Assembly: GCA_037176725.1 (NCBI GenBank)
Contig: JAZBRS010000020.1
Location: 98,040,501 to 98,104,500 of the forward strand
DNA length: 64,000 nt
Reading direction: 5' to 3'
Source of the DNA: Posidonia oceanica
Taxonomy: Eukaryota; Streptophyta; Magnoliopsida; Alismatales; Posidoniaceae
The notes below the pieces were generated by a model. That model saw only the letters and a list, made by a program, of their open reading frames with translations. It ran no database searches and had not been told where the DNA came from. This document shows, piece by piece, positions 4,190 through 60,272 of this stretch; the first letter of the stretch is position 1, and every line of letters begins with the position of its first letter. The position numbers and the translations under genes are program-made.

Positions 4190-4197
4190 TATAAAAG
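4190..4197 (+). promoter_or_regulatory. Element B 5' LTR TATA box
   Basis: TATAAAAG lies downstream of the dyad array and inside the tract that is identical in both LTRs. It is the best candidate for the LTR promoter. The copy in the 3' LTR is at 9476-9483. Confidence 0.6.
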
Positions 4198-17812: not shown

Positions 17813-20626
17813 TGTAACACCCAACAGATTTAATGAATTCATTTCCCTTGTAATTATATAGATTTAATAAATTCATTAACTGTAGACGGGTGTTATTGGC
17901 TTGCGTGGTTTTCTCTGTGGTTTGTTGGTGGGACCAGTTGTGGTTTGGTAACTAGCTTTATCTTTATTGCTCTTTTGTCCCTATCTTCTGCATCTCTTGT
18001 TTCCTAATTCTTGAGGGTTTGTAGTGCAATTTACCTAGCATATCACTATGCGTGGGACCGCCCGACACTATTGGTTTTGTGCGTTTGTTGCAGCGGGATT
18101 CGAGGTATCTGTGTCGGTTGGTGAGGGCGCGAGATCCATTTTTCCTGCTAAAGGCTTGCATCCGTGCTTCTACAGTTGCCATGGCTGAGGCTATAAATCT
18201 GCATGGCTGCTGTGTTCATTCTCCCGCAAACACACATCCCTCCTCCTTCATCTCTCTCTCTCCTTCCACTCATCTCTCTCTCACTCATCTTTCCCTCCCA
18301 CACATTTCTCTTGTCTCTCACTCTCTCCCACTTACCTCTGCCTCCCACTCACCACTCCCCAACTCCCTCGTTTCTCCGCCCTCTCCCCCGAACACTATCT
18401 TCCTTGGGTGGGCGGCGGCGTACTCTCCTCTTTCCCCACCGATCACACCCAACTCCTTTTTTTTCCCCCTCCTTCCTCCTCACTCCATCTCCTCCATCCT
18501 TTCTCCACCTCCCCTTCTTCCCCTTCTCTTCCTCCTTCTTCGCTATCGGTGGTGGCGCAGCTTGGAATTGCACCGGAGGTCATCTCAGTCCGGCGAGCGT
18601 GGGTGGTCCGAGGTGGTGGTCAACAAGCTCCTCCTCTGTGCTCGAGCGTTGGTGAAGGTGAGCCGAGTTACAGTTTGAGGTTTGTGTTCGTTCTTCCTCC
18701 ACTTGGCCTAACTTGGCTCGACGTGTGGCCGTGAGGCGGGGTGTAGCCAGCGCGAGTCGTGTGGTCTCCGATCTTCTTCCCATGGTGGAGTGGACTCCAG
18801 GGAAGCTTCGTGGTCGCTGGCAACCGTGGGTGTCGCCGGAGTTGGCCGTGTGTGTGCCCTGGCCATAAGGTGCACACCTCACTTTTCTTCTCAAAAGGTT
18901 TGAAAACGATATGATTGTGTTCCTTGTGATGATTCTAGCATGATAGAAGTGGTTTGGTGATTTTTGGTTGAATTTATGATTTTTAATCGAAGATATTTGG
19001 TTTCGATTGATGAAAGCATGATATATGGTTTTCTGATGATTTCATGAATTATATGCCATGGAATGACATGATTTTGGTACGAATGGATTCCTTATTTCAA
19101 TACATTCATTTTGGTATATTATATGTTGATTTTGGTTGAATGTATAGGAAATTTGGGTTTTGGGTAAAAATACAGGGTTTTGGTTGTGCCCTGATTCGGC
19201 ATGCTATAGCAGGGGGCAGTTCGGCCGACCAAAAACTTTCAGTTTGCCAAACCTTGGCCTGGAGTTGGACACAGGCGTCTGGTCCGGTCGACTAGAAATT
19301 TTCGGTCTGCTGAGCCAATGTCAGGGGCTATTCCAAGGTTGTTTTGGGTTGAGTTTTAATTGTTATTAATTATTATTTATTTACGCCTTAGTTTATGGTT
19401 TATCTTGTGGCATGATAAATGATTTCAAAAAGGGTTTTTGAGAAAATATGGATGTGTTTTCAAAGGATTTTGTAGAGGTTTTGTTGTGGGCCAAAACTTG
19501 GGAGTTGTGTGGCCTAGACTCGGGAATGCGACGACGTTCCTGGTGTGTCGGACACTTCACCTGGGCTGAGGTCCAGGTGTCGGTGTGCCGTCTGTACCTA
19601 GAGGTATCGTGGTAGCGGACACGGGAGGTATGATACTCCTGTGTAGTTGGACGTGATACCCTAGTCGCTATGGACACCGCGACTCGCCTTGAGGTGCTGA
19701 GGAGCACTTGAGTGATTTGAAGCACAGTGTTTATGGGTGCCAATGTGACGTGCCCTATGGTTCTGCCTTGAGTGAGGACAGCTCGCCCAGGTGGGGTGAG
19801 TAGCTTTCCCAAGTGGGGATTGCTTTTGAGGCTCCTTTAGGTGGGAGGACACTAGGACGGGCACGCTCCTCCACAAGGATGGTGTCCGTGGTAGTGTAGT
19901 GAGTTCGGGGTTGAGTCCCTGGGCTACCGCTTGAGGCTAGAGTTGGTTGCTTGGAGCTGGGCAATATGACCTATTGTGGTTCTTTTGCCCGTGGGGCTTG
20001 CAATTGAGGTTTCTGACTGTATTAGGCCTAGAGCTTTTCCCGTTTTTGCGGTATAGTGGCTTTTGCTGAGTTTTGGCTGGTGGGCCTGAGTTTTGATAGA
20101 TGAGATTTGATATATGTGGTGTTTTCCCTGTTTTGGCTTATTGGCTTTGAGAAAGGTGTTTTTATAGAATGAAATGATGATATTGGTTTGGCCTTGGTGG
20201 TTCGACCGGTTTATTTCTGTATTTGAGGTTTTATTTCGATTTTGATGTGGTTTTTCATGGGGTGTGTGCAGTGGATATGGGGTTTTGGAGGAGAAGAAGG
20301 CTTGTTTTTGGTTCTATTTGCTCTTTCTTGGGGTCCCCTTTTTGTATCCAACTCCGTCACTCCACAGGTGATGGAATTGGTGTGATTGCCACTCTCGGTT
20401 CGCTTTCGCTGGCCCTCGAGATGCCTTGGGAGATGTGATATGGTTGTGGATTCTGCTATCTTGGAACAACGCCTACGTTGCCCAAGGGTGCCCGTGCTTG
20501 GTGAGTTTCTTCTTCTTCTTCTTCCTTGTAAAACAGATTTAAAGATGCGGATTAACAAAGTGTAGTATACGATTCAAAGCAAATATAAAAAAAGACATGA
20601 AATAAGAAAAGAGAAAAAAGACTTAC
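17813..20626 (+). repeat. LTR D, related to solo LTR F, cut at its right end
   Basis: It starts TGTAACACCC within the copia element. Its parts follow the order of LTRs B and F: a CT-rich block (18235-18560), a GC-rich patch, a TTCGG array (19195-19314), and a block at 19550-19960 that matches the reverse complement of F around 49330-49700 (including 'gaggacagctcgccca' and 'gggacgggc'-like pieces). No LTR end or primer site was found before 20627, where a family C repeat starts. Proline- and serine-rich ORFs in the CT block are compositional. Confidence 0.6.
19195..19314 (+). promoter_or_regulatory. Phased TTCGG dyad array in LTR D
   Basis: Sites start at 19195, 19220, 19238, 19283 and 19301, with distances 25, 18, 45 and 18. 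This is the same order of steps as in element B. The sites are partly eroded (TTCGGCATGCTATA, TTCAGTTTGCCAAA, TCCGGTCGACTAGA), yet the spacing holds. Confidence 0.75.
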
Positions 20627-21254
20627 TGTAGCGATCCCGTGAGCTTCGCGATCGTCCGTGGACGTTGCCAGAGCTCGCGTGCACCGATCGGAAAATCAGG
20701 TTCACTATTAGCGGGTGATCTGAGGAGGAAACTCGACTCAAAACACCGAAAACAAAGGCGAAAAGCCAAAGGGAAGGAAAAAGAGAAGAAAAAGGGAGTC
20801 GCCACCTAGTCTATTAAGTCGGGAGATAAGAAAAATCGGGGAAAAGCATGAAAAACATGCAAAACCACACAAAAAGATGAAATACAATGCAAATGCTATG
20901 CAAAGAGGATGACTCGTGCCAAAGACGAGGGCAAAAGGGTCATTACGGGCCAGAGAAAGAGTAAGGACTCCTATTACGTGCGGGGAAGGTGTTAGGCACC
21001 CCCGACACGCCCGAGAAGCGGTCTTTCTAGGCTTATGCTCGCTTTTGAGGGAAAATGCATGCTTTGAATGCCTAAGTGCCATGAATGCCTAATTAGATGC
21101 TCAAATGTGTGCTCTAAGTGATGAAATGCGTGAAAGGAATTGAACGTACTATCTAAGTGCTCAACAGCGCTGTTTGTGTTCCGAACCAGACGAACCCTGG
21201 TCCGTGAGAACTCCAGGCAGTAAGCATCACTGCCCTAATGCAAATGCAAGCGAT

Positions 21255-21680
21255 TAAAACAAAACGTCGATAAAACCACATAATGCAGGGGTGCGACAAG
21301 CAAAGGGAAAAGCAAATCCAGGCGGAAAACAAGCAATGCAAACATGAAAGAAAAACATCGGAAAAGCCACGTAATGCAGGGGTACGACAAGCAAAGGGGA
21401 AAGCAAATCAGAGCAGAAAATAAGCGATGCAAGCGTGAAAGCAAAACATCGGAAAAGCCACGCAATGCAAGGGTACGACAAGCAAAGGGAAAAGCAAATT
21501 CGGGTGGAAAACAAGTAATGCAAATGTGAAAGCAAAACATCGGAAATGCCACGTAATGCAGGGGTACGACAAGCAAAGGGGAAAGCAAATCAGGGCGGAA
21601 AACAAGCAATGCAAACGTGAAAGCAAAACATCGGTTAAAACCACGCAATGTAGGGGTACAACAAGCAAAGGGGAAGATTA
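21255..21680 (+). repeat. 91-bp tandem repeat in family C copy 1
   Basis: About 4.7 units start near 21255, 21346, 21437, 21528 and 21619. Each contains AACATCGGAAAAGCCACG, AATGCAGGGGTACGACAAGC and GGCGGAAAACAAGC-like pieces. A further diverged unit lies at 21757-21830. The period is not a multiple of three, so the long minus-strand ORFs here (for example 21235-21648) are repeat artefacts. Copies 2 and 3 lack this expansion. Confidence 0.85.
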
Positions 21681-22599
21681 GACGACATGACGGGCGTCAA
21701 TCGGGCAGTTAGGGCTGCCAGCCTGAATGCAAAGGAGAGACAAGCGATGTGAGTGTGAAACAAACATCGGATAAGAACCACATAATGCGGGTGTGAAGAC
21801 CTGCAAAGGAGAAAGAAAGCAAGCAAAGGGATCCCCACTATCCTGTGACTGTTTCCCACTAAACCGTCCCACGATATGTCTCGCATGCTGCCCAAAGCTC
21901 GTTGTGCAATCGGATCGTGGAAAATGGGGAAGAAGGCCACGATCAGTAGTAAATCCGAGGGAAAACTCAACCCAAAGACACTAAGAAGACGCAAAAGGAG
22001 GAAGTAGAGTAGATAGGCAAGAGGGGAAGTCCTAATCTACATGCACGGAAAACGAGGTGCGAAAAACAATGCATGCAATGCAAATGACAGGCAACAAATG
22101 ATATGGATTCAGATGGACTTACCTTGGAGATCTGAGGCCTGATCTGAGATAACCTTGGTCAACATAAAAGTCCGCTCCACCAGGATGATCCAGGTAGCTT
22201 GGTCGCGAAGATCCGACAGTCCGATCGGCAGTTATCCAGGTTTAAAGCCAGAAGGCCCAAGGGCCTGAAAAGGGTAGGGGCCTAAGTGCAAATAATCTCT
22301 AAGGGTGTGCAATACAGGATGTGTGCATGCAAAAGTGCTTAGGATGCTGGTAAGTGCCTAAACAGGTGTCTAGGTGCAATGTGCAAAGATGTGTGTGCGA
22401 TATGTGTGTAAAGATGCAAGTGCAGGGACCTATGTGCAAATAAGAAAAAGTGTAGGGGTCTATGTGCAAAACATGGCAAACATGCAGTGCAAACATGATA
22501 AGTGCAGGCAGGGATGCAAGTGCAGCAATGTGGGGGGGCAGTAGCGGCCAGATGCAACAAAAATACAAGGCAAACATGCAATTGGTCAATAAAGGACCT

Positions 22600-23650
22600 A
22601 AACGCAGTTTTTAGAAAACTTATGGACTAAGATGCAAAACCAGCAAACAGACGCAAATCCCAACAAAGAAAACCTGCAAGGGATCCTCATGCAACTTTGG
22701 AAAAGCTTGGACAGGGAAAGCAAAGTCAAGAAGCATTAAAAAAACCACAAAAGATGGTCCTAGGGACCCATATGCAATTTTCAGGAAAACCAGGACTAAA
22801 CAGCAAATCCATAAAAAACAAGCATGCACAGCCACAGTAATGTTCAAAAACCTGGGTGCAACCTAAATAGGCCTTTAGGCTTGAAAGCAAAGCTAGAAGA
22901 AAACCACATGGAAACCACATAGCATTGGACAGATCTACCTGCAATCTTTTAAAAAGCTAAGGGCTTAACTGCAAGACAAAACAAAGACCTAGGGGGCATT
23001 TTGAAACTTAGAAGGACCTGCATGCAAATAACAAAAACCTCTGGACCAAACAGCAAGTCCAAAAAAATGCGAACATGTGCCACAGTTGATGTGCAAAGGG
23101 CCCAAATGTAATTAAAATAAAATCCAGGGCTTAAAAACAAGAAAACACAAGGCACAACATATTTCTAGAAACTGAGATGCAATAAATAAAACATGCTGGG
23201 GTTTTATGCAATGCAATAATGTTCTAAATGCTGAAATAAATCAAATCTAACAACCAAAGGACCCAGATGTGATTTCAAGAAACTTAAGGACCCAGATGCA
23301 AAACAACAGAGAAAAAACAGAAAAGGATTCACAGTTGTTGGACCCAAAAGTAATTTAAAAGAACCTGCAAACAATTTATGCAATGCAATATGATATGAAA
23401 TTCAAATTAAATCACATTCATCAACTGAGGAGGACTAGAATGCAAATAAAAAAAGATACTGGACTAAAACTAAAAGATGCTGAAAGATTTTGAACTGCAA
23501 CAGGACTAAGATGTAATAAAAAGAAAAGACAGGAATTTAACGCAATGCAATATAGTTTAAATTAAACATTAAATGAAATCTAAACTGCAACTAGATCAAA
23601 ATGCAAATAAATAAAACTAAGAGGAACAAATGCAATGCAATGGTAAACTA
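22600..23650 (+). repeat. GGACC...ATGCAA motif field in family C copy 1
   Basis: A loose pattern of a purine-rich GGACC or GGACTAA followed within about 5 bases by ATGCAA or ATGTAATTA and an A-rich stretch recurs many times (for example near 22760, 23010, 23265, 23290, 23430 and 23505). The word ATGCAA is dense across the whole family C region. No coding sequence is evident. Confidence 0.5.
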
Positions 23651-23699
23651 ACTAAGTTAAGAAAAAATAAACGAAAACGCAACTAATGGGATTATAATA

Positions 23700-25135
23700 A
23701 GGGAACGCTACAGTAGATGAACAGTGGCATGACATTTGCAGACCTCCTGGCAACTATGGGCAGAGGTGGAGCGACGGATGGAGGCGAAGCTGCGTGCGCA
23801 GGGGCTCGGGGAGGCCCGGCGCAGTCCAGTGGGGCTCGGCGGGGCTCGGCGGAGTGGCGGGCGGCGTGGCACGGCTTCGGGCGTGTTGCACCGGCGGTCG
23901 GCACCAAGGAAGAAGGTGAACTCCGGTGAGGCGCTGGCGGCGCATCAGGGCACGAAATGCGAAAAAAAACATATGGGGATGAAGAAGGGAGCGAGGCGGA
24001 TTTAGGGGAAGAGTTGCTTACCTGTTTCGCACGCCGGGGTGGCCGGACGACCTCGTGGAAGTTCTGTCAATGGCGTGGCAAGCGGAGGAGGCTTCGGAGT
24101 GGCTGGGAAGCGCGCGGTTGGAGTCCAAGCGAGATCGTGGAGGTGCAGAGGAGGCTTGGGAAGCGACGGCTGGTCCTCTCCTCCCTTCCACGCGCAGGTG
24201 GCCGGAATGGGTTCTGTTGGAGAATAATCTCTCTCCTCCCTCTGTTGGTGGCTCTCACCGGGTTGCTCTCTCTCTGTGGCTTCTGGAAGGGTTCGTGGGG
24301 GAGGGCTGGTGATGGTGGAGGTCTGGTTGCTTGGAAGTGAAGAGGAGGAGTTGAGAAAGTGGAGAAGGTCTGGAGGAGGAAGCTGTGGAGGAGTGTGATG
24401 GTGGAGAGAGGGTGTTGCTGTGATAGATGTTGGTCTGTGGGTTGGGTGCTGTGTAGGAGGTGAGGTGCTGGTGAAGGAGAGGAGGTCTGGTTGTTTGGTG
24501 GTGGCAGGGAATGGTGGTCTGGTGGCGGTCTGATGGTGAAGAAGAAGTGAAGAGGAGGCTATGGTCTGAGGTCTGTGTGGATGTCTGGTGGTGTCGTTGT
24601 GTTGGCTCTTGGCTGTTGGGAAAAAATGAAGAGAGGCTGGTTGTGTGTGAAGACTGGGGTGTGTGAAGGCTGTGGTGTGTGCACTGATGGCCGTTGGTTG
24701 GTTTTGGTCTTGGTTGTGGTTTAGGGCATAGGCTGGAGGTGATGGAGGGTCTGATGGAGGAAGAGATGGCTATGAGGTGAGGGAAGTCAAGGATGACGGA
24801 GGGATGTCAGGTGGATTTGAAAATGGAGAGAGGATGGCAGCTGGCTGTGGGGGAAAAGGAGAAGAAAGGAGGGGGAAGAAAAGGAAAAAAAGAAAAAAAG
24901 AAAGAAGGAGAGGAGGAGGGAAAGTGAAAATGAGAGGAGGCTATGGGCTAGATCGTGAGGAGGAGAAAAAAAGGGAAAAAAGGTGAATGAAGGAGTGGGC
25001 CGGGCTGTAGGAATAGGAAGGAAAAAAAAGGAAATAAAGAAAGGAAGAAGGAAAGAGAGAGAGGATAAAGAGGAGAGAGAAGAAGGAAAAAAATGATAAT
25101 TAGAGAAAAAAGAGGGAGAAGGAAGAAGACTTGTG
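23700..25135 (+). other. GC-rich then purine-rich part of family C copy 1
   Basis: The GC-rich stretch 23750-24320 has overlapping ORFs in several frames without recognisable domains. It corresponds in position to 46500-47160 of copy 2. It is followed by GGTG-rich and then GGAAA/AGAGG purine DNA (24830-25130). The glycine- and arginine-rich ORFs are compositional. I see no gene. Confidence 0.45.
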
Positions 25136-25700
25136 GTTTTTGAGTTTTGTTTTGATTGATTTTTAAAGATTTTTTTTTAATTTTTTTAACTTGTTTTCTC
25201 TAAGTTTTTGTTTTAGTTGATTTTTAAGGTTTTGTTTTAATAGCTTTTTAACTTATTTTTCTTAGGTTTTTCTTTTGATTATTTTTTGAGTTTGAATTAG
25301 GGTTTTGAATTTTAGAGAATGGTTTTTTAGGTTTTGAATCAGGGTTTTGAAGTTTTCATTTTCAGTTGAGTCTTTTAATTGTTTGTTAAGTTTTCTTTTG
25401 ATTAGGATTTTAAGGTTTTTAATTGTTTTCGAAGGATGACTTTGCTTTGTTTTTTAGTTAAGTATTTTCTAGGATTTTTTGTTTTGATTTTTCTAAGTTT
25501 TGTTTTGATTGTTTTCTAGGTTTGCTACTTAGGTTTTTTAATTAGGTTTTTCTTGGTTTTTTTATTAAGTTTTTCTAGGTTTTTTAATTAAGTTTTGATG
25601 TGATTTTCTGGATTAGGGTTTAGGGTTTTAGGGTTTTGGGTTTTGGGTTTTGGAGTGGATTTGGTTGTTAGGGTTTAGGGTTCAATGGTTTTGGGTTTTA
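25136..25700 (+). repeat. T-rich TTTTAGGTTTT repeat grading into telomere-like TTTAGGG
   Basis: Degenerate TTTTAGGTTTTG and TTTTGATTG words fill 25140-25600. Between 25612 and 25690 they grade into GGGTTTAGGGTTTTAGGG, close to the plant telomere repeat. Copy 2 ends in a similar GGGTTTAGG, GGTTTTGGG stretch (47220-47270), so this looks like part of the family C unit and not an interstitial telomere. Confidence 0.55.
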
Positions 25701-28357: not shown

Positions 28358-30330
28358 TCACGAATCATGTTGAAATTTTATAGTAACTAAAGAAGAGAAT
28401 GAAATACATAAGTTGTACCTTTGATCAGATGACGATGGAATATCAACTCTAGCAAGTGTGCTTGTATAATATCTGACTTGTATGGTCCACCTAGGTAAAA
28501 TATATTTTCTGTCAATATAGTCACTCCCTTTTTCCACAGAATTAGAAGGATATAACGACATAGAATCTCTTCATATTCAAATTTCTTACACGAACAAAAA
28601 GCAGAGATTTCAATACCACTGTTGAATATCACAGACTATGGTGTGTATTTTTTCCATACTTCCAAACATAGTATTGAGCACTGTTTCCGTCTTGGCTTTT
28701 GGGAGGCATAAGACAGTCATTTCTTCAATTCATTCTCAAACGAAGTATATATAGTCCTCGTGTATTCTTTGCCTGCTTGTGCTTCAATTGGATTAGAAGA
28801 CAAAAGTATTGGTGTGGTTGACATTGTCATCAAGTCCTCTTTTTTTCAGCATTCCGTTTAAATGATAATGCTCTATCATATTGAAAGACAAACTTCGAAA
28901 TAGGAGTTAGGGAATGAACATAACCATCAAAAAAAAAAGTTGATACTTTCAAATCATTGGCTAGTGGACATTTCAGCCATAAACACGTCCTTCAGATAAC
29001 AAGGGACCCAATTTTCTCAAATATTATACATTGTATTCAACCATGTATTATCATGAATTGAAGGATATATATCTTTCAACAACTCCCATTGATTCTCAAA
29101 TTTCATGGGAGTTCTGGAACCATATATGCATTTCCCATAGTCTTGTTTGAAGTTGACATTGCATCTGAGCTCAGATACATGGTTTATTGTATTTTTACCT
29201 ATGTGCCACGAACAATACCGATGTGTTGTACCCTGCAAAATCATTAGAATTGTAGCACACATAGTGACATCTTGATTTGTAATGATAGCCTTTGGCTTCT
29301 TACCACACATGTACCTCAGGAATGTTGTAAATAAATAGGTGAAGGTATCTTCTGTTTCATTAGCAAGCAATGTACAACCAAACAACGTAAACTGTCTGTG
29401 ATGATTAACACCAGTGAATGACGCAAAGAGCATGTTAAAGTTATTTATCCTGTAGGTTGTGTCAAAAACAACTACATCTTTAAATTTCATGTAGTTGTCA
29501 CGAGACCTTCCATCAGACCAGAAAACACTTCTTATTGTGTGATCTTCATCCAATTCAAATTCGAAGAAGAACTGCGGATCTGACACATTTTTTGATTCAA
29601 AGTACTCATCACAGCCATACATTCCTTCCCAATATTATTTTAATGAGTCCATCTTCTATGGCCACTAATTTATTGGGGAGTGACACCTTCATGGCCACTC
29701 TCTGAGAGAACTTGTGCAACTCTAGATGGTCTAACACCACAAGCAGATAAAGTATCAACTAATCCTTTAGCTACTGAAGACAATTTGTTATGAAATCAAA
29801 GCTTCGATATCTTACTAGGTGTGGTAAGAATATGATTGTGCTCTTCAATAAATTTATCCACAATCCATAGTCCTTTGTCTCTTTGGACAATACAAAGTCT
29901 AGCTAGGCAACCTTCAGGAGTACATCTTCTCCTATTAATTTCTTTTCCCCAGTACCGTTTATCTTTTAAATCCTTTTCACCTTGTTTAGAACAAACAAAA
30001 TTCCTTGCTATCATTTGTCCAGTGCTTTTTGAATTCCTAAACCAACTTCTCCTGATGGAAAATCCTTTTATCCTGACATATGCATTGTAGTACAGGTATG
30101 CTTCATTTTCTGAACTAAATTCCATACCCATATAAGGCTGAATAGGCACTTGAGAAGTGTACTGTGGTGTATTTTGCTCCTCCAACTCTTCCTCGTCTAT
30201 ATCAAAATCTACACAAATGTTTTCATCTTTGTTGCCACACAAATCTTCCTCATCTATATCAACATCCATAGATAAATTTCCATGCTTGCTGCCAAACTCT
30301 TCATCGATATCTATATAATCCTACATACAC
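28358..30330 (-). pseudogene. FAR1-RELATED SEQUENCE (FRS/FHY3-like) pseudogene
   Basis: Read on the minus strand, 30269-29796 has an acidic N-terminus and then the FAR1 DNA-binding domain (MEFSSENEAYLYYNAYVRIKGFSIRRS ... CTPEGCLARLC ... EEHNHILTT, residues about 47-155). After a broken stretch (29795-29623), 29622-29017 encodes the MULE-type transposase core (FDTTYRINNFNMLFASFTG, ITNQDVTMC, HRYCSWHIGKN). Beyond a stop, homology goes on (ENWVPCYLKDVFMAEMSTS, FFDGYV) to a SWIM-like finger CSCKKFEYEEILCRYIL, whose usual His is Tyr, and KYILPRWT near 28480. Intact members are transcription regulators derived from Mutator transposases. Frameshifts and stops make this copy inactive. Confidence 0.88.
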
Positions 30331-44005: not shown

Positions 44006-44708
44006 GTAGGAAGGATGTTTTCACTAGTTATGTGTAGTAATCTTGAAATTCTGATCGTCCATGCACGATGCCAAAGTTCGCGTGCATCGATTAAAATAGG
44101 CTTACTATATGCGGTAGGATCCAAGGGAAGAAACTTGACTCGGAAATGCTGGCAAAAAGAAGAAAAAGAAATGATAAGACAAATCGGAGTCGCCACCAGG
44201 TCTATTAAATTGGGAGACAGGGAAAACCGAGGGTAAGCCATGAAAAGACATGCAAAACCGGATGCAAAGAGACGCGATGCAATACAATGCGATGCTATGC
44301 AATACTATGCTATGACTTGTGCCTAGGATGAAGGAAAGGTCATTGCGGGCCAAGAGAAAGGGCAAGGACTCCTGTTACACATGGAGAAGGTGTTAGGCAC
44401 CCCCGATACGTCCGAGAGTCGGTCTTTCTTAGGCAATCTCGCTCGCTAATGTAGGAAGATGCTTGCCTAATGCTTAAATGCAATGAATGTCTGATTGCTA
44501 TGCATGGGAAATAAACGTGCTATCTATGTGCTCAGCAGCGCTGCTAGTGTTCCGAATTGAACGAACCCTGGTTCGTGAGAACTCCCAGGCAGTAAGCATC
44601 ATAGCCTTAATGCAAATGCAGGTGATAAAACAAAACTGCGGGAAAACCAGGCAATGCAAGTGACATGCAAGGGATAAACCAAAGCGGGCGTAGAAAACAG
44701 TGCGAGTG

Positions 44709-44822
44709 CGGAAAATGATGCAAAGGCACGGAAATCGATGCAAGCGTGGAAAACGATGCAAAGGCATAGAAATCGATGCAAGCGCGGAAAACGATGCAAG
44801 AGCGCGGGAAACAATGCGAGTG
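44709..44822 (+). repeat. 38-bp tandem repeat in family C copy 2
   Basis: Three units of GGAAAAYGATGCAAAGGCAY plus GGAAATCGATGCAAGCG. The third unit is more diverged. The position corresponds to the 91-bp array of copy 1, so this part of the family seems prone to repeat expansion. Confidence 0.8.
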
Positions 44823-45019
44823 AGCAATATGCAAAAGGGAAAGCAAAAGCGAATTCGGGGCGAAAACCACGAGAAAGTGTGCAAGGCGAGGTGCCAAACC
44901 AAAACAGGGGTCAGGTAGCAGGCATGGGGGTAGCAGTACGTGCAAGAAGCAATAAAACACGAAAATCGACGAGCGAAACCAAATCGGTGTGTTAAAACGA
45001 CATTCAGCCATCTGTAAGT

Positions 45020-47147
45020 GTTGGACGCAGCTATGACCTACGTCCAACATTGGACGCAGGAATAGATGGTGTCCAACACAGACAGAAGGCAAAAAAGCAT
45101 GCCGTGGAGAAATCGATGCATTCTAACTATATGAATGCGATGCAAATGCAGAAATGCAGTAGAATAGGTGCATGACATGCAGGGCAAACAGGACAGCAAT
45201 CAGAAGCAGATTCAGAGCAAGAGGCAAGCAAAGATCAGCATTTTAAACAAGCAGGTCGTTGGATGCCTGATGGCGTGGCGTCCAACGTTAGACGCTAGAG
45301 GGACTGGCGTCCAACACAGGCCAAAGGACAACAAAACAAACCAGCATACAGATGATGAACAAAACATGTAAGCATGCATTAAGGCTACTGTAAGTAGGCA
45401 TAGGCTAAACATGCAAGCAAAGGATATGACAAATCCAAGAAAAAACAACATCTGCAACACGTGCCAGGCATGAAGCTCAACCAGAGCATTGGACGCGAGC
45501 TGAACCAACGTTCAATGTTGGACGCCAGGAACCGCAGCGTACAACGCACTGGGAGGCACAAACAAGCAAAAACCCTGCATAAAACTAGCATATGATCTAT
45601 AAAAGCTGAGGAGCAATTGCTATGAAGGCTAAGCAAGCATACAAGCACAGGAAACATGCAAACATATGGATCAGAGCATCAGGCAAACACTTAAAACCAA
45701 AGTAAATGAGCAGCGACGTTAGACGCTGCTGATAGCAACATCCAACTTAGGACGCTGAAGCCCCCAACGTCCAACACCTGCAGAATGCAAACCTACCTGC
45801 AAAGGGGGAGCTCAGCTCTAAACCCCACTTAAACATGCATGCAAGCTACTGAGGACAAGATAGATCAAGGCATGCAACACAGAATAAGCATGTAACAGAA
45901 ATAAATGTAATATTCAAGCATTAAAAAAGCATGCAAAAGCTAACAGAGGCATTAAACGCAGAGCATACCTGCGTCCAACATAGGATGCAGGGCACACCCG
46001 CGTCCAACACAGACAGCAAGGCAGACCTTAAGCATGGATTTAAACCAAAGATCAAAGCATTATATTAAGCATGGCATGACATCTAAAGGCATGGAAGCGA
46101 GCTTGAAACAATCATGCACAAGAGGAAACAACCAAACTATAGCAAAGCAGGAGCGAGGCTAGCAAAAAAGGGCAGGCATGCATGCAGGGGTGTTGGACGC
46201 CAGCGCATGGGGCGTCCAATGTTGGACGCACTAGGCAGTGCGTCCAACAAGTCGAGAAATATCCTGACCTCGATCAGTGGCCAAGGGGGCCAAAAATCAC
46301 CAACCAACTTGCTAGGAAGCGAGAGGGAGTGACGACGAGCATGTTGGTATGCTTGGCGCCAGAAATGGGCAGGTGGATTGCACCACCCACCTCCTCCTCC
46401 TTGCGGCTGGCGGCTGGGGCTTTTCCGGCCAACCAAGGAAGCGTGCGTGCGAATTAACTATCCTAGCATGCTACTAGGTGTGTGGGCTAGCTAAGGGGAC
46501 GAAATGCTGACCTGGTTGTGGCCCAGAAGCGGCGTTTGCTGTTGTGGCCGACGTTGCAGAAGATGGTGGCGAGGCTACTCCGGCGAGCTTGCTTGGCGTG
46601 CAGGGGGCTCGAGAGAAGCTGTTGGAGGTCTGGGAGTGGAGGTGGGAGTTTGCTCTTTGCTCTGGTGTGGTCGAATTGGCAAGGGAGAGGTTGTGGTGGT
46701 CTGTGTGTTGGCATGAAGGTGGTTGTTTGGCATGGTTTTGGTGTTGGGTTCATGGGTGGAGGCCGAGGTTGCAGAGGAGTTTGCAGGCAATGGAAGGGGC
46801 GTGGCAGGCTTGCTAGGTGAGGGGAGGCCACGAGGCATGGCAGGCGAAGGGCATGGGCTCGCCAGAATGTCACCGAAGGTGCTGGTGTTAGACAGCGGCT
46901 GCAGTGAGGGTGGAGAGAGCGGGAAAGGTGTTGGGGAGGAGAAGACAGCTAGTAAGTGGAGTTACTCGGCCTTGGCAGCTAGTGGGTGGCTTGGAGTGGG
47001 TGAGAGGATGGGTAGTAAGTACAGATGGGCGGTGGAGTGGACGGGAGGTGAGCCGAAGGTGGCGGAGCAGCCGCTGCAACACCCAGGACGTTGGACGCTG
47101 GTGCAGAGTGCATCCAACGTTGGATGCTGCCCGTGCCAGCGTCCAAC
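45020..47147 (+). repeat. Seven double-hairpin modules (GTTGGACGC/GCGTCCAAC)
   Basis: Modules start at 45020, 45258, 45488, 45718, 45951, 46192 and 47090. Each is arm-loop-arm, arm-loop-arm with 9-bp arms and 11-bp loops, 58 bp in all; the inner arms abut to form GCGTCCAACGTTGGACGC. Arm starts within a module are 20, 9 and 20 bp apart in all seven, except one 19 in the sixth. The first six modules recur every 230-241 bp. Loop sequences and inter-module DNA differ from copy to copy, and only the arms are kept. Confidence 0.92.
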
Positions 47148-47494
47148 ACGCCAGGAGGCCAAAGGCTGAAATGAGCTTGGGCTTGGGCTTAAAAAGGGTT
47201 TAAAAAGGTGTAAAAGGCTTGGGTTGGGGTTTTGGGGTTTAGGTAAGGTTTTAGGTTTGGTTTTGGGTAGAAATGGGTTAGTCTGAAAAAGAGAGCCATC
47301 CCAGAGTCCAAGCAGACCTACGGGAGAAACCACCAACTTCCAGGCTGTCAGAATGGGTTGTCTACGTTATGTTGCTTAGAATGTTGTCACATGGTTATGA
47401 TAGCAGTGATTTGGGTTACAGTAACAGTTATAAACTGAGGGCTTTTCATCTAACAATTCATAAAACCTGATAATTTGGCCACATATTTGTGCAG

Positions 47495-50884: not shown

Positions 50885-50932
50885 CCAGACGACCAAAAAC
50901 CCTCCTTTTTACAGACGACCCAAAATTGTCCC

Positions 50933-52428
50933 TATAGATATTCCATTTTCGCATTTCCCAGAGTTCATAGAGGATAGGAACTTTTGAGGCACCTAGATCA
51001 CACAACTAAGGCTTAATAACATATTTTCCGGAATTTTCATGATCTGCTTAAAAACAATGCTTGATCCTACTTGACTTAAGGTCGTTGGCTGTGGCAGAGC
51101 TGACGCACTCAGACTCGTGGCAAGTCTGAGTACCTTGAGCACACTTTATTCCACTCAAATCCGTGGCAGATTTGAGTCAAAGAAGTTGTTTTTATGATTT
51201 CATGAGATATCTGAAGTTTCCCGGCCTTTTATCATGTTTTCTCTAGATAGAACCTAAAAGTTAGAGCTAGAAATGATCTGAGCTTGCTAGTTGCCAGCTG
51301 GGGAGGCGATTGAGTTAGGCATCACTCTAGGCGACGACTAACTATCGTGGGCTCCGTTAATTGTCTCCTGTAGTTATTTTTGACGGTTGTGTCCCACAAC
51401 CCCACCAACAGCTGGACGCCAACCTAACCGGCGACTAACGGTTGTGGAACTACAATGGTTATTTCTCACGATCCCTTTGACCACTAGGAACCAATCCAAC
51501 CGGCGATTGGCGATCGTGGTTCCCGATAACCAAATTTCTACGGTTTCCTCCACGTCAGCTTGGGCAGTTACTAGTCTTAGGCGCCTACACATGCGGCGAC
51601 TGGTCATAACTACCACTTTTCTTCTGGAAATTTCTACGGTTTTCTCCACGTTTGCTTGGGCGGTTGCTGGTCTTAGTCGCCTTCTCATGCGGCGATTGGC
51701 CATAACTGCCACTTTTTCTAGAAATTTCTATGTGTTAACCACCCACACCCTTGGAGTCTATAAATAGACCCCGTGGGTCAGTGTTTGAACGCCCGGCCAG
51801 TTGTGAGGAAAACCTATGTTGGAGAAATTCCCTTTAGGTTTTTAGGGTTTTGAGCTTCCACCTTCACATAGCTAGAGTTTCCAAGCTAGAAACCATAGTC
51901 TCCACCATCAAAAGAGAAACCTAGATCCCAGAGATCACTACACCCAACTACGATCCCAAAGTTCTCGAGCCTAGCTGGAGATCCGACCGTGCCTCCATTT
52001 CTACTCCATTGTATACAGCACGAGGGTGAAGGGAGTATCTTCTTCCAATCTTTTTCATTACATTTCATATTGCATTCCTTAAAATCGGACTCATAGCATA
52101 TGCATGCGGGGAACAACCCCCAGTTAGTATTAGATCTATTTGTTTCTAGTATTCTCTGTTCTTCTTTGTTATCATTTACTACACACCAACTTATCTAGAT
52201 CTCTTGTTTTTGTTTATTTGTTTTGAAGGAAAGAAAACGCTTACGTAACACGAGGGAGCCGCTAGACGACATCCAGCCGTCGATCTAGTGGTCCGAGGAT
52301 CTATATCTTCATAATCTCCCCTAAGGTGTCTTGTCTACCCAAAAGCGAGTGGCGATCACAACAAAAGTTGACGACGTACATGGAGGCGCCGCCATCTTCT
52401 CAAACACCCCCCCAAATCCACATCCACT
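50933..52428 (+). repeat. Element E 5' LTR
   Basis: It starts TATAGATATTCC where the 3' LTR has TGTAGATATC, so the terminal TG is mutated. TATAAATA at 51760-51767 is the likely promoter. Upstream lie 72-bp and 96-bp enhancer-like repeats (51415-51720). It ends CATCCACT against CATCCACA in the 3' copy. A stretch near 51930-51960 is absent from the 3' LTR. Confidence 0.9.
51415..51720 (+). repeat. Enhancer-like direct repeats upstream of the element E TATA box
   Basis: AACCGGCGA-centred units recur 72 bp apart (51426 and 51498). Units starting TTTCTACGGTTT and CTCCACGT recur 96 bp apart (51535 and 51631), each carrying TGCGGCGAYTGGYCATAAC. The same block is in the 3' LTR at about 59280-59590. 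The minus-strand ORFs of 112 residues in both LTRs read through these repeats and are not genes. Confidence 0.75.
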
Positions 52429-52451: not shown

Positions 52452-53775
52452 TCGGCTTTAGCCAACCCCTATGCTACGTAAGCAAGTTTTTTTCCCTTCT
52501 TTCCCTTTTTATTTTTTTATAGATCTAAGTGTAGTTTTCGGTTTGGGAATCGTGCGTTTAGGTTTTCACGGCACCCCAAACCTTTTATCGTTTTTTTACT
52601 TTTCCTAACATTAGTAAAAACCTATAAGCTTCAACAGCTGAGTCGGTTTTACTAAGGTCAGAAGACTCTGCATATGAGCCGCCTGTCCAAGGAGCGTCTG
52701 TCCTAACCACACCTCCAGGAGGCGACTGACAGAGGCGCCATTGCAACAGGCAACTCATCCCAGTCCGTTTTTTACTGTAGATCATTAGTTTTTCTGTAAT
52801 TTGTGTTGTATTTTTGGATCTGCAGTTGCATAAAAAAAATAAAAAACAACTATTCCTGTCCACTATGTTTTAGCTTTTCAACGATCTCTAGATTTGTTGT
52901 GTCCACCCTTAAGGTGGAAACTAATTGTTTTATATTAAAGTTAAAGTTCCTTGAGGAAGTCTTCCTCTAGCTAGAACAATTAACCTGAGTGAACCGGGGC
53001 CAGTGCAAGTCACTCTCCCATACTCAGTGTTAATTGCCATAGTTAGATCAAGATCTCAAGGTGTCCTAAGTGTTATTATTGACTCCTCTTTCTCCCCGAG
53101 TAAATATTAAAACTTGGTAGATACTTTACACTTTAATATTTCGTGTTTATTTGCTGTTTTGTGGTTTGACTAAGTGCTGAGCCTAAGGACAGAATCCTAG
53201 GTGGAGGGTCCCTCTTTAGAGAGACAAGCCCCCCATCTAGGCCCTCTTAGTGGACCCTAAAGAAGGTCAAAGAGTGGTACCTATGAGCAAAAATCCCGTT
53301 CAGTGTAAACACATGTAGGTTTAATCAATCCATTAACTAGTCACTTAAACAATAAAAACAGTGATCTGCCTGAAACTCGTACTGTTTTATTTTCCTGTTT
53401 GTTGTACGGTCTGTCCAGAACAGACCTTGGCTGCCGAAAGAATAGAGCTTAAGCCGCCTGTTTGGAAGGTACCTCGCTCAGCCGCCTAGTCAATCGGCGA
53501 CTTGTTTGGTCGCCTAATCTACAGGCGACTACAGGGTAGAACGCTCCGGTGTGCCTTGCATGCAGGAATCTAATTATCTTCATTAACAGGTTGCAGAAAC
53601 ATCAAAACAGGAACTGTTTACTATTTTATTTTTACTTCCATTCCATCGAGTCTGTATTAAGTAGTGTATTGAGTCTGTAATTTCATTTTAAATCCCCTGT
53701 AATAGTCTAAAGAGAAAAAGAAAGAAAGAAGAAAGAAAAGAAAAAAAGAGAAAAAAAAAGAAAGACAATTTCACG
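52452..53775 (+). other. Element E leader region
   Basis: This 1.3-kb untranslated leader includes two patches of GGCGACT/AGTCGCC inverted words (52675-52740 and 53450-53531). A purine-only-like tract of A and AG (53709-53765) lies directly before the gag start. It contains no ORF of note. Long leaders are usual for this class of element. Confidence 0.6.
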
Positions 53776-55215
53776 ATGGAACTTTATCGACCAAATCAAG
53801 GGCGCATCAATATGACCTCTGCCTCAACCTCTACCTCCACGGCACAACCGAGCATGGACCCAAATGAGTTCTTATTTAGAGCTTCAACTCCACAGGCGGA
53901 AGAGCCGAAATCTCCCAATTTCGCACAAGAAGTTGAAGGAGAAAGAGAAATAAGCCACTCCCGACCTCAGAGTACCCCGTTCGAACACACAAATTCTGGG
54001 GTAACTTCCCAAGTAGTGCCTACAACGACTGCTTCCTATCTGTCTGAGGAAGCGATTCATGAGATCTACCAACTCTTGGCACGGCACCACTATCCCTCAT
54101 TTAGGAGCCTACAAACCTCATCCGTCCACCAAACTTCTTTCCCAAACTACCACCAGAACCCATCCACTCCCACTCACACGTACACAACACAAACCTATCC
54201 TTTCATGCAGCAAGCCATGCCATCATACACAACCTACCAACAACCACAATATCCCGGGACATCATACCAACCACAGTATCCCAGAATAACACACTCACTA
54301 CAACCTCCCGCTAACACACAATCATACTATACTCTACATCAAACCCAACCCTTCTCTCCACCATACGACCCTCTATCACCACTGTTCCATCAAACACATG
54401 GGCACCTAAACCAAGGACAACAAGCCGTGCCAGGACTGGACATCAAGAGAATGATCTCTACGGCACTCACAGAGGTGGGAGTTATATCTAAAGCACTGAT
54501 AGGGTTTGACACGTCGAAATTTCCTCATTTTGTCCTTCCACTTGGATTCAAAATGCCAAAAATGAGGAATTACAGTGGGATAGAGGATCCAAGAGGCCAT
54601 CTAGCCACATTTGCTATGGATGCTCTACCCTATCAATATGATAATGGGCTTATAATCTACCTTTTCTTTAAGAACTTGGAAGGGGAAGCATTGGGATGGT
54701 TCAACATGCTCACAGCATATGATCTCAGTGACTTCAGGATAGTCCAGGAGAAATTTCTACGCCAATATGTACATCGCATCCAGCACGAGCCTACAATGAG
54801 CGACCTCTTCGCTGAAAAGATGAAACCTGACGAAGAGTTCGCCACTTTTGCAAGTAGATGGAGGGATATGGCTACAAGGTCCAAATGCTATATTCTTGAA
54901 AGCCAAGCTATCGAGATCATCGCACGAAACACTACAGGAGCACTCAGAACAGGGCTACTAATGAGTGACCTCCAGACATACCCTCAGCTACATGAGCGTG
55001 CTGCAAGAATACTCCATCACAAAGAGGAACTACCATTCTTAGAGCTCAAGGGAAGGGGCAAGAAGAAGAGCACTGGCTATACGCTTGAAGGGATCACAGG
55101 TGACATGGCCCAGGTCTCAATTCAACAAAGGCAGGAGGACCAATACCAGTCTGAGCAATCACTCCTAGCCAAAGGGCAACTGACCCAGTATCAGCTAGAG
55201 CCATACCTAAGCTAA
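53776..55215 (+). CDS. Retrotransposon gag protein (element E)
   Basis: The 479-residue frame has a disordered first half rich in Ser, Thr, Pro, Gln and Tyr (residues 1-220; for example PHYHQ-like and YQPQYP repeats). A retrotransposon gag domain follows at about 240-420 (LGFKMPKMRNYSGIEDPRGH, NLEGEALGWFNML, FLRQYV, FATFASRWRDMA). Gag forms the virus-like particle that packages element RNA. A TAA stops the frame in a Gln-rich stretch, but the same frame resumes as PAQYQGQLVQPIQHQQQQPP, so the original protein was longer. It is probably the only product this element could still make. Confidence 0.85.
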   Translation: MELYRPNQGRINMTSASTSTSTAQPSMDPNEFLFRASTPQAEEPKSPNFAQEVEGEREISHSRPQSTPFEHTNSGVTSQVVPTTTASYLSEEAIHEIYQLLARHHYPSFRSLQTSSVHQTSFPNYHQNPSTPTHTYTTQTYPFMQQAMPSYTTYQQPQYPGTSYQPQYPRITHSLQPPANTQSYYTLHQTQPFSPPYDPLSPLFHQTHGHLNQGQQAVPGLDIKRMISTALTEVGVISKALIGFDTSKFPHFVLPLGFKMPKMRNYSGIEDPRGHLATFAMDALPYQYDNGLIIYLFFKNLEGEALGWFNMLTAYDLSDFRIVQEKFLRQYVHRIQHEPTMSDLFAEKMKPDEEFATFASRWRDMATRSKCYILESQAIEIIARNTTGALRTGLLMSDLQTYPQLHERAARILHHKEELPFLELKGRGKKKSTGYTLEGITGDMAQVSIQQRQEDQYQSEQSLLAKGQLTQYQLEPYLS

Positions 55216-56313: not shown

Positions 56314-58804
56314 GGGCAGTGGTTAATTCGATTAAAACGTGTAAATAAGACATTTTTCTTTCCGTACTCTATTTTCCCTTCATTTATCTTTATTTATCTC
56401 TAATGCTAAGTTAGACTATAAAAATAAATAAAAAAATGATTGATGAGTGTGGACTATACCTAACGACTTAAGGCATTAAGGAGAACTGCCAAAATATTAC
56501 CTAAGGTTCCTAAGCAGAGACTGTGACACCCAGGGAAGGTCCAACCACTAGTTGCGACAGCCTGAAGACATCTTTAGATCCGTGGGAGTTACATACAGTA
56601 CACCCTTAATTAGCATGCCAAAGTCTAGAAAGGAACCAAAGACCAAGTCCTAGCCAAGGAAAGGAAGTTGCATCCTAAATAGAAAAGGAACTGAACAACT
56701 AGGGTAGCCTCAACCTTGTCCTGTCTGCACATACACTTGCACGGGGAGGTAAGAGAAAGGCAAGCTCGGAGCAAAGGCTTATGGTACGAACCGCTTTCCA
56801 AATAACTTAGAAAGCGTCCAAAAAAGATGGTATCAAAAACTGCCCAAACGGAGAGGGAAGAAGGCAGCAAAGAAGCTGTCCAAGTGAGGAACAAATGAAA
56901 AGAGACAGTAAAAGAAACTGTCCAACTGAAAGAGGTCAGCAAAGAGCTGTCCAAAGAGCGGAAAAGGAACATAGCAAAAGTTGTCTATGGGTCTAAAGCA
57001 TAAATCATGGGGAGACACGTTAAGGACCAAAGAAAGGCAAGTGGAATTCAAGACCTAAGCCGAAGTTGAGAGCCTACTACACTTCAAACCTCCTCCACCT
57101 ATCTCACCCACAGGCAAGGGGCAGGGAATCCTAGAAGTTTAAGGACTGATTAAATGAAGGAAACAACAATCAAACTAAGGCTAGTATGAGGCCCTAAGTT
57201 CTCAAAAGATAAGGCATGTTAGAAGGGAAAAGTTCTCTCACCCTAGATAATATAAGGCAATACTACAAGGTCTTTAAGTAAGAAGGTTGTGATTGCACTC
57301 ATCAATCCAAAAACTACCAAAAAAAATCAGAAAATTCAAAAATACCAAAAAAATAGAAAATAAAAAAAAAACCAAAAAATCCCAAATACCAAAAAATAGA
57401 AAATCTAAAAACTACCAAAAAAATAGAAAATCCAAAACTACCAAAAAATAGAAATCCCAAAATACCAAAAAAAATCAAAAATTCTAAAAGATTCAAAAAA
57501 TTAGAAAATCCAAGAAAACCAACCAAAAAGAAGCACCATCCACCCTACATACAAGTGAAAACTTAGTAAGTAGGAGAACTGGAATTAGTTTGGTCAATGA
57601 TGCAACAATCATTTCACCTCAGATTTGGGGATAACGTTCTACTCAAGCGTGTCTCACGGCTTGGGTGCATCTTCTCAACAAAGACATTGCTTCTGCAATA
57701 ATCTTTAGAGCATCTATGGATGACTCACAATCGGCGTCTATTAGGCTCCGATTTTCCATCTCCTTGCTGAGGCCAAGACTAATTCCCTCCACCTAGTTCC
57801 CAAGCATATTGATTAAGGGATTACTTTATCTCATACACAAGTATAACATAGTCAATTGTCCTAGGAACTGGGAAAGGTTCACCTGTGATTACTAACATCT
57901 TTTGTTAGGTGTGTAGGTACAAAGCTTACAACATGAAGAATGAGCTCACGCCTAAGGGGCTCATATAGTGTGCAAAGGCACACCCACTTTGACTAAAAGG
58001 CAAACCCCGGTTTGGCAAAGGAAGGGTTCACTCCCTCACCCAGTTCTTTAATCATAGAACTCCTTTATTTGCCAAATCGAGTTGTGGGACGATGGTCCTT
58101 TCCAGAGAGTGCTGGTCACACTTGAGGACGGAAAACACTTGACCACAACAAATTGCATTCATTCATCTTGCATATGTCCATATGGTTTGGGAACAACCGT
58201 ACCTCGTCGGCCTTACCTTGCATATGGACCATTCATTGCATCGTACGTTGCATTTGCATTTGTTTGCTTGAATCATGCATCCATGCATTTTCTCATATCA
58301 TTAGAAGTGGAGCACGGATGGAGCCAAATGACCTTCAAGAGTGTTAGAAACCCTTAGGACATGTGATTCTCCTAGAGCCAACCTAGTTTCTACCAATCCT
58401 TCTATCAATTCCAATCCGAGTAAAATCTCAAACATGACGCCACAAGAGCACTCCTTTTCGATCGTGTAAGGGTCCTGCCCCACGATTTCCTCCCTAGCTT
58501 CTGCCCCGTTGAAGTACATCTCTACATGGTTGACTTGGTCTTGACATCGGCTGCTCAAATAGCCCCGACTTGACCCCTCCATGCCTGAGTCTTCAATATG
58601 ACGGTAATTAATCGAACCACCTTGCCGTTCGGCAATCTCCCGACACCGAGTCAGTTCACCCCTTCTTCCTTTTTATTATCTTCCTTCATCCCTTGTGGCA
58701 GATTGTTTGAGATGGAGCTCCCCTTTTCAGGAAATGCTCAATGGGACATTTGTTCTTACCTTGTACTCAATCTTGTTCCAAGATCAACTCCAAGGAGGGG
58801 CATC
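56314..58804 (+). other. Element E 3' untranslated region and polypurine tract
   Basis: No protein domain is evident. 57300-57530 is an A-rich array of CCAAAAAATAGAAAATC-like words. Short minus-strand Phe- and Leu-rich ORFs there are artefacts. The polypurine tract AAGGAGGGGCATC ends at 58804, directly before the 3' LTR. Confidence 0.6.
57300..57530 (+). repeat. A-rich CCAAAAAATAGAAAAT tandem array
   Basis: The words ACTACCAAAAAAATAGAAAATCC and AATACCAAAAAAATC recur about 8-10 times with variable length. It is simple, purine-heavy and non-coding, inside element E. Confidence 0.75.
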
Positions 58805-60272
58805 TGTAGATATCTCATTTTCGCATTTCCCAGAGTTCATAGAGGATAGGAACTTCTGAGGCACCTAGATCACACAACTAAGGCTTAATAACATATTTTT
58901 CAGAATTTTCATGATCTGTTTAAAAACAATGCTTGATCCTACTTGACTTAAGGTCGTTGGCTGTGGCAGAGCTGACGCACTCAGACTCGTGGCAAGTCCG
59001 AGTACCTTGAGCACACTTTATTCCACTCAAATCCATGGCAGATTTGAGTTAAAGAAGATATTTTTATGATTTCATGAGATATCTGAAGTTTCTCGGCCTT
59101 TTATCATGTTTTCTTTGGATAGAACCTAAAAGTTAGAGCTAGAAATGATCTGAGCTTGCTAGTTGCCAGCTGGGGAGGCGACTGAGTTAGGCACGACTCT
59201 AGGCAGCGACTAACTGTCGTGGGCTCCGTTAACTGTTTCCTACAGTTATTTTTGACGGTTGTGTCCCACAACCCCACCAACAACTAGACGCCAACCTAAC
59301 CAGTGACTAACGGTTGTGAAACTGCAACGGTTATTTCCCACGATCCTTTTGACCACTAGGCGCCAACCCAACCGGCAACTGGCAATCGTGGCTCCCGACA
59401 ACTGAATTTCTACAGTTTCCTCCACGTCAGCTTGGGCAGTTACTAGTCTTAGGTGCCTACACATGCGGCGACTGGCCATAACCGTCACTTTTCTTCTGGA
59501 AATTGCTACGGTTTTCTCCACGTTTGCTTGGGCAGTTGCTGGTCTTAGTCGCCTTTCCATGTGGTGACTGGCCATAACTGCCACTTTTTCTAGAAATTTC
59601 TATATGTTAACCACCCACACCCCTGGAGTCTATAAATAGACCCCGTGGGTCAGTGTTTGAAACCCCGGCCAGTTGTGAGGAAAACCTATATTGGAGAAAT
59701 TCCCTTTAGGTTTTTAGGATTTTGAGCTTCCACCTTCAAATAGCTAGAGTTTTCAAGCCAGAAACCCTAGTCTCCACCTTCAAAAGAGAAACCTAGATCC
59801 CAAAGATCTCGAGCCTAGCCGAAGATCCGACCGTGCCTCTACTTCTACTCCACTGTATATAGCACGAGGGTGAAGGGAGTATCTTCTTCCAATCTTTTTC
59901 ATTATATTTCATATTGCATTCCTTAAAATCGGACCCATAGCATATGCATGTGGGGAACAACCCCCGGTTAGTATTAGATCTATTTGTTTCTAGTATTCTC
60001 TGTTCTTCTTTGTTATCATTTACTACACACCAACTTATCTAGATCTCTTGTTTTTGTTTATTTGTTTTGAAGGAAAGGAAACGCTTACGTAATACGAGGG
60101 AGCCGCTAGACGACATCCAACCATCGATCTAGTGGTCCGAGGACCTACATCTTCATAATCTCCTCCAAGGTGTCTTGTCTACCCAAAGCCGAGTGGCGAT
60201 CACAACAAAAGTTGACGACATACGTGGAGGCGCCGCCATCTTCTCAAACACCCTCGCAAATCCACATCCACA
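58805..60272 (+). repeat. Element E 3' LTR
   Basis: This 1,468-bp LTR, TGTAGATATC to ATCCACA, pairs with 50933-52428 with scattered substitutions and a small deletion. TATAAATA is at 59631-59638. The target duplication GTCCC follows. Confidence 0.9.

Follow-up and report, generated by a model that had tools for sequence, protein, structure and literature searches.

Six modules of two abutting hairpins recur at nearly even steps in the genome of Posidonia oceanica, and they raise the question of what has kept their arms and loop lengths alike. The window (the whole stretch of DNA analysed, 64,000 nt long; assembly GCA_037176725.1, contig JAZBRS010000020.1, positions 98,040,501-98,104,500 of the forward strand) holds these six double modules at starts 45020, 45258, 45488, 45718, 45951 and 46192, that is, in steps of 238, 230, 230, 233 and 241. 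In agreement with the original prediction, each consists of two abutting hairpins, with loops of 11 nt in 11 of the 12 cases and of 10 nt in the other. The prediction had overlooked a seventh, isolated module. The modules, none of which is assigned a strand, are the following.

45020..45077, no strand: module 1, double dyad, loops 11/11
45258..45315, no strand: module 2, double dyad, loops 11/11
45488..45545, no strand: module 3, double dyad, loops 11/11
45718..45775, no strand: module 4, double dyad, loops 11/11
45951..46008, no strand: module 5, double dyad, loops 11/11
46192..46248, no strand: module 6, double dyad, loops 11/10
47090..47147, no strand: module 7, double dyad, isolated, 220 bp from the LTR 5' end

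Searched with up to three mismatches, the window yields 13 matches to the 29-bp pattern of a single hairpin, where 100 shuffles predict 0.00, and 12 of these 13 matches fall in the six modules or in module 7. Matched arms had also been claimed; they are present, but rarely perfect, as a single one of the 14 window hairpins is free of mismatches and the rest are mismatched at one to four of 18 positions. The DNA between modules had been described as drifted almost beyond recognition, which overstates the case: the spacers retain a gapped identity of 0.66-0.76 and a relatedness z of 1.4-5.5 (10 spacer pairs, 60 shuffles each). Since the inter-module DNA is still weakly related, the modules represent an old tandem array. 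The window copy is an old relic, and the results presented here do not point to present function. The plus strand of 45078-46191 (1.1 kb) also carries CATGCA, presumably the core of the plant RY element, 11 times, with 0.27 expected for uniform bases, and TGCATG occurs there three times. Three further loci (L024, L016 and L014) each have 9-15 copies of CATGCA within about 2 kb, whereas the motif is absent from window positions 46250-47366.

The geometry of the module was defined at loci taken from the same 2.96-Gb genome (labelled L0xx; C1 and C2 are contigs). These loci lie mostly on C1 and, except for L029 and two internal stretches (L027 and L028), were picked for holding the motif; they therefore give no estimate of how many LTRs carry modules. 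The unit is formed by two abutting 29-bp dyads, with four 10-bp half-sites (R)YGTWGGACGC in the order > < > < and arm starts at 0, 20, 29 and 49, and the module spans 58-60 bp. Across 20 loci from C1, with 2 kb entering the count twice, 128 > < distances of up to 80 bp were recorded, of which 98 are 20 and 17 are 19; among 50 < > distances, 42 are 9. L010 was trimmed where it overlaps L009 in the loop and covariation surveys, but not in the > < distance survey. When loops of 5 to 18 were admitted, with up to three mismatches in 18 and over 262,000 bases, the loop was 11 long in 180 hairpins and 10 in 34, with single cases of 7, 9 and 18; loop length is thus kept, as had been proposed, and does not vary freely. 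Exactly one abutting partner accompanies 198 of 214 seed hairpins (two in four cases, none in 12), which identifies the pair as the unit, and chains of three hairpins occur in L015, L033 and L014. At L014:4101 and L015:5045 the module is cut to a single 29-bp hairpin, and the neighbours of this single-hairpin module lie 431 apart, versus 460 for two steps of 230, that is, one 29-bp unit shorter.

For the half-site profile and the covariation analysis, 120 of 122 modules were kept (total mismatches up to 9), 110 of them distinct in their arms, and 83 of the 87 modules with 11/11 loops were placed in an ungapped alignment, A1. L009:8607 and L015:6795, which overlap another listed module, L014:5735, a poor match, and, by oversight, L026:7202 were left out. 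Since both loops had to be 11 nt long for a module to enter A1, a subfamily distinguished at position 6, with 10-nt loops, is absent from it. Pooled over 448 arms, similar copies included, the half-site reads (R)YGTWGGACGC followed by a weak WRG, with near-invariant positions 2 (T, 0.989) and 6 (A, 0.975). Six columns of A1 are invariant, namely position 6 in all four half-sites and position 2 in two of them, while position 2 of the remaining two is conserved in at least 90%. At position 3, each of the four arms has either T or A, with A in 12-28 of 110 modules each, and a Y precedes the outer half-sites in 218 of 220 flanks. At the junction CpG, the 110 modules comprise 45 GG, 34 GA, 28 AG, one AA and two others, a pattern in which decay is clearly visible. 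With a step of 20 bp, paired half-sites would be separated by roughly two helical turns and lie on the same face of the DNA. Taken as a whole, this appears to be the profile of a sequence-reading protein with two-fold symmetry. The core CCWAC appears to resemble the AC elements of R2R3-MYB factors.

The modules of the window lie in a solo LTR, whose features are listed below.

44033..47366, minus strand: solo LTR, Ty3/gypsy-type (probably Tat/Ogre-like), with boundaries common to other genomic copies
44028..44032, no strand: target-site duplication TTATG, left copy, same as 47367-47371
47367..47371, no strand: target-site duplication TTATG, right copy, same as 44028-44032
44033..44686, minus strand: conserved 3' part of the LTR, common to eight aligned LTR 3' ends, with or without modules

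This LTR is 3,334 bp long, with the element's 5' LTR end at 47366 and its 3' LTR end (..CTACA) at 44033. On the plus strand the unit begins with TGTAG.. and, in most relatives, ends with ..TGTCTACA; its last base, 47366, is G in the window and A in L014 and L015. In relatives, a primer-binding site (PBS) lies beside the 44033-type end on the minus strand (GTGGCGACTCCGCTGGGGA in L015, the seen part of L033 being much alike), and a purine tract precedes the 47366-type end, also on the minus strand (L014 and L024). The solo copy has neither, and it is the position of both elements in relatives that identifies 44033-47366 as an LTR read on the minus strand. L014:2680-6024 (C1:1776679-1780023) and L015:3564-7072 (C1:1812063-1815571) are 94% identical, with 172 transitions to 31 transversions. 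They carry the target-site duplications GATAG/GATGG and have the polypurine tract (PPT) and PBS on their inner sides, and we treat them as the LTR pair of a single element. Hence, TG..CA LTRs with a short duplication are found both in this pair and in the window, and L033, on C2, has the same LTR layout. A stretch that resembles the PBS beside the LTR, GGTGGCGACTCCG, is also present inside the LTR at about 44184-44197 of the window (minus strand), some 150 bp from the LTR 3' end; GGTGGCGACT is kept in seven of the eight aligned LTRs.

The lineage of the element is probably Ogre/Tat. The PBS letters, TGGCGACTCCGCTGGGGA / GTGGCGACTCCGCTGGGGA, were read directly and are, we assume, of the Ogre tRNA-Arg type. 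Within the L014/L015 span, L028 holds a plant mobile domain (PF10536, 36.8 bits, cut-off 34.9) antisense to a weak gag match; L019 reaches 14 bits for the same domain, and Retrotrans_gag matches below cut-off occur in L028, L018 and L021. According to the accessible part of PMC6317226, this domain is present in 57% of Ogre elements. The TG..CA LTRs and the 5-bp duplication are shared with the Tat/Ogre group, as may be the PBS TGGCGACTCCGCTGGGGA and the mobile-domain ORF within the span. In contrast, the accessible part of PMC6317226 makes no mention of dyad arrays, and the ORF lies here antisense to the element. Reverse transcriptase (RT), RNase H and a strong gag match (L016) were found only in LTR-flanking sequence, and the element itself yielded no RT; together with the antisense mobile domain and the likelihood of nested insertions, this leaves the assignment at probable.

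Several other repeats and genes share the window with this LTR. Positions 50932-52427 and 58804-60271 form a direct repeat, 91.9% identical, which encloses a 507-aa open frame at 53692-55215 (Retrotrans_gag below cut-off) and looks like the LTR pair of another element. A 2.8-kb direct repeat, 90.8% identical, occupies 3061-5904 and 8365-11188. FAR1 DNA-binding and MULE transposase domains are encoded in two open frames at 29017-30320 on the minus strand, a predicted Mutator-like or FAR1-type gene. The stretch 20650-21331 is 72% similar to 44053-44699, and a 91-bp tandem repeat of 4.7 copies (21243-21675) starts within it.

The module is very abundant in the genome. The exact pattern GTTGGACGC-N11-GCGTCCAAC occurs at no fewer than 82,515 places in 2.96 Gb, a count that, like those of other large repeat families, may be a lower bound, whereas 0.04 are expected by chance; the reversed-pattern control gives 0 places in the same genome. 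In 257 Gb of prokaryote contigs, two matches were found, with 3.7 expected by chance. Among the matches listed, about 50 exact places fall in the first 3.95 Mb of C1, or some 13 per Mb. As the genome mean is about 28 per Mb, other contigs must hold denser or younger arrays. The modules are likewise present in a second LTR family, TGTAGATACCCC..ATATCCACA, of 1.2-1.3 kb, the first at LTR position 160 and the next some 230 bp beyond it, with a third LTR module in L018 and L019. This family also has modules in the leader between PBS and gag (L018 and L021) and upstream of the 3' LTR (L019); a PBS-like stretch is seen in L018/L021 and a PPT in L019/L022/L023/L026, and the gag ORF stretches of L018 and L021 are free of modules. 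Taken over the loci studied, LTRs with modules span 1.2-3.6 kb.

The modules are not common to all related LTRs: copies without them, which the original prediction had named as evidence against itself, do exist. The other two LTRs of the prediction's "family C", whose 3' ends lie at 20627 and 62998 of the window, belong to the same superfamily and are module-free where read, one weak five-mismatch match aside. No module was present in window positions 20600-25500 or in L012:1-3226 (one weak five-mismatch match each), in L007:5799-10000, in the 1.6 kb examined of L023 (8423-10000), or, with up to four mismatches, in L029, which continues the LTR of 62998 and has a further LTR end 2.4 kb on.

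What has been conserved, and when, can be read from a comparison of eight aligned arrays (28 pairs), in which identity was scored separately in arms, loops and other sequence. In 21 distant pairs, arms are identical at 0.83-0.92, loops at 0.36-0.59 and other sequence at 0.50-0.67; in five intermediate pairs, the values are 0.88-0.94, 0.67-0.83 and 0.76-0.82, respectively. Modules are recognised by their arms, which somewhat inflates arm identity, and columns recognised in only one member of a pair were kept apart as "mixed" (0.60-0.96). L014/L015, the LTRs of one insertion, show 0.93 in arms, 0.94 in loops and 0.95 elsewhere, and the 95% alike copies L024/L025 give 0.92, 0.94 and 0.95. Within a single insertion, the arms thus have no advantage over the remaining sequence of the two LTRs, from which it follows that the constraint predates insertion: arms hold near the level of post-insertion decay while other sequence keeps diverging. 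The proposed selection on arms and geometry is therefore supported by the distant pairs, albeit on active elements before insertion and not on the copy in the window.

Selection on the arms could act at the level of RNA, and tandem RNA hairpins were one half of what had been proposed; in the genomic RNA they might serve as a packaging, dimerisation or nuclear export signal. The arms are complementary, the loops are fixed at 10-11 nt, and the modules lie in parts expected in genomic RNA (LTR, leader and 3' region), all of which would suit such a signal. On the other hand, the hairpin arms of A1 pair in 87.6% of cells against 87.2% when shuffled, a level reached by 60 of 500 shuffles, and for a control pairing of the same arms, in which these hairpins could not form, both figures are 87.5%. 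Of the five arm measures, two are borderline, namely double-changed cells (24 of 500 shuffles) and the covariation score (25 of 500). The three inner loop pairs do covary, with 56.8% paired against 51.5% shuffled (0 of 500). Nevertheless, the control pairing of these inner columns is nearly as high (56.2% against 52.3%, five of 500), and for this reason the signal is read as half-site flank symmetry within lineages. The base outside the half-site could add a wobble pair to one hairpin: among 118 modules, the outer Y forms a Watson-Crick pair with its hairpin partner in 55 on one side and in 35 on the other, and the most frequent combinations are T with G (50 modules) at one end and C with A (69 modules) at the opposite end. 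Whichever RNA strand is considered, one of the two sides would be largely G-U wobble, and the outer Y decides neither for DNA nor for RNA.

Position 3 offers the cleanest test, because its change from T to A is a transversion whereas decay consists mostly of transitions. Among the 110 modules, written in half-site letters, hairpin 1 has TT 66, TA 21, AT 18 and AA 5, with 5.4 AA predicted by independence (z -0.2), and hairpin 2 has TT 74, AT 22, TA 6, AA 6 and two others (z 1.9). The correlation is stronger between arms that do not pair, 1-3 and 2-4 (z 3.9 and 4.5). Genome-wide, among 10,000 listed matches with a change at position 3 and otherwise perfect arms, 4,443 and 4,673 are single changes and 884 are double, so that 9,116 hairpins are mismatched rather than compensated. 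The doubles exceed the 252 expected 3.5-fold, which would speak for pairing, and the doubles among the matches listed repeat a limited set of loops. The genome-wide control on non-pairing arms covers three of four classes, with both strands added (2,456 AA, 137,194 TT and 4,494 TA), and its odds ratio would exceed the 3.5 of the hairpin unless the fourth class counted more than 21,367.

In hairpins chosen by their abutting neighbour, positions 4, 5 and 6 covary (z 4.2, 3.8 and 8.0). Compensation at position 6 (C/C) belongs to one GCCGC subfamily with 10-nt loops (L014, L018 and L025); compensated A/A changes occur at position 4, which also correlates weakly across non-pairing arms, and the signal at position 5 rests on few modules. 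We read the compensated changes as lineage effects, given that non-hairpin pairings behave nearly the same, with a genome-wide control limited to three classes. Much of the variation in the arms stems from decay of CpG sites after insertion, and this would mask compensation. In sum, and contrary to the covariation that had been anticipated, arm changes are largely uncompensated, with little compensation beyond that of non-hairpin pairings, and Rfam returns 0 matches at gathering score in the window. RNA hairpins are, on this evidence, an unlikely explanation, and of the two halves of the proposal it is the two-site protein platform that is better supported.

A second alternative dispenses with function altogether. 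An old tandem array could have been homogenised by recombination or template switching, through concerted evolution or quasi-palindrome correction, and such a history would account for the weak relatedness of spacers within one LTR, for the resemblance that hairpin 2 can show to hairpin 1 of its own module, and for the position-3 correlation between arms 1-3 and 2-4, which fits a tandem 29-bp duplication. However, loops and spacers should then have followed the arms, and in the 21 distant pairs the loops have not. Template switching should moreover match the arms to each other, yet their match is little above that of shuffled arms, and we hold an array that never had a function to be quite improbable. 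Although inverted repeats can yield siRNAs, modules kept or bred by the silencing machinery as a source or target of small RNAs are very improbable, since mismatched arms of nine bp would be short for a dicer substrate and host silencing would not be expected to hold positions 2 and 6 yet free position 3.

The account that we consider reasonably probable is that the module is a sequence-specific, two-fold-symmetric DNA-protein docking site, arrayed in LTR retrotransposons of a very abundant plant group of elements. The module would be the target of a dimeric or tetrameric protein with sequence specificity, and several modules, spaced at about 230 bp within the LTR and in the second family present also in the leader and 3' region, would recruit enough of this protein to drive transcription or to keep the element unsilenced. 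Geometry, half-site profile, pre-insertion constraint and the scarcity of arm compensation are observed; binding and its effect we infer from them. The binder may be, by analogy with known systems, a host factor such as an R2R3-MYB protein or an element-encoded factor of the VANC type.

Two known kinds of system are pertinent. The LTR sites of Tto1, Tnt1 and Rider are few and simple. As far as the accessible parts of the sources go, host-factor sites in the LTR control transcription in Tto1, with NtMYB2 (PMC6762207), and such sites are represented by the BII boxes of Tnt1 and the CREs of Rider (PMC6762207, PMC3316501). The present modules are similarly borne by LTRs; unlike those sites, they number up to seven, with up to about 28 half-sites per LTR, keep a fixed 20-9-20 geometry, and extend to the leader and 3' region. 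VANDALs, in turn, are Mutator-type DNA transposons. In the Arabidopsis VANC-VANDAL anti-silencing system (PMC5735166, PMC10398659), as described in the accessible portions of PMC5735166, the nine-base VANC21 motif forms dense arrays in non-coding parts of one transposon group, is rare in other transposons and evolves by tandem repeats. The arraying of a short motif in non-coding parts, here the LTR, leader and 3' region, is common to both. VANDALs, in contrast, are not LTR retrotransposons and carry their motifs in one orientation, whereas the module is a rigid four-half-site dyad with a putative binder. The LTR retrotransposon anatomy of the element rules out that it is itself a VANDAL. A further parallel is Retand, of the Tat clade, whose tandem arrays lie in non-coding sequence after pol and before the 3' LTR and whose LTRs are 315-1,194 bp long (PMC11963269, accessible part). 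It shares repeats in the non-coding 3' region with the present elements, whose LTRs measure 1.2-3.6 kb and hold modules within them.

Transcription, as in Tto1/Tnt1, or anti-silencing, as in VANDAL/VANC, would be the best account of the role of the docking site in active elements, and the presence of modules beyond the LTR favours anti-silencing a little. A more specific version, which we regard as doubtful, is that the retrotransposon group encodes its own protein, for instance that of the plant-mobile-domain ORF, reading the four-half-site module in LTR, leader and 3' region and protecting or activating kin only; this would be a VANC-like self/non-self anti-silencing with a rigid two-dimer code. 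The plant-mobile-domain DOWN motif CATGCAGTTT, from the accessible part of PMC9899485, does not match the half-site, and the accessible part of PMC7156037 gave no motif letters for comparison.

Among the literature matches listed for GTTGGACGC/GCGTCCAAC, none concerns plant retrotransposons by title, and no description of such modules was found by titles and abstract openings, which does not prove its absence. The half-site profile is sharp enough to attempt recovery of the protein by one pull-down. An exact 18-base, two-part site in at least 82,515 copies, with a geometry held as its surroundings drifted, points to a strong DNA-protein interaction that is central to a highly successful group of retrotransposons. 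Should the binder be a host factor, the transposon would have scattered very many binding sites over the genome; should it be the element's own factor, anti-silencing would be extended from DNA transposons to LTR retrotransposons.
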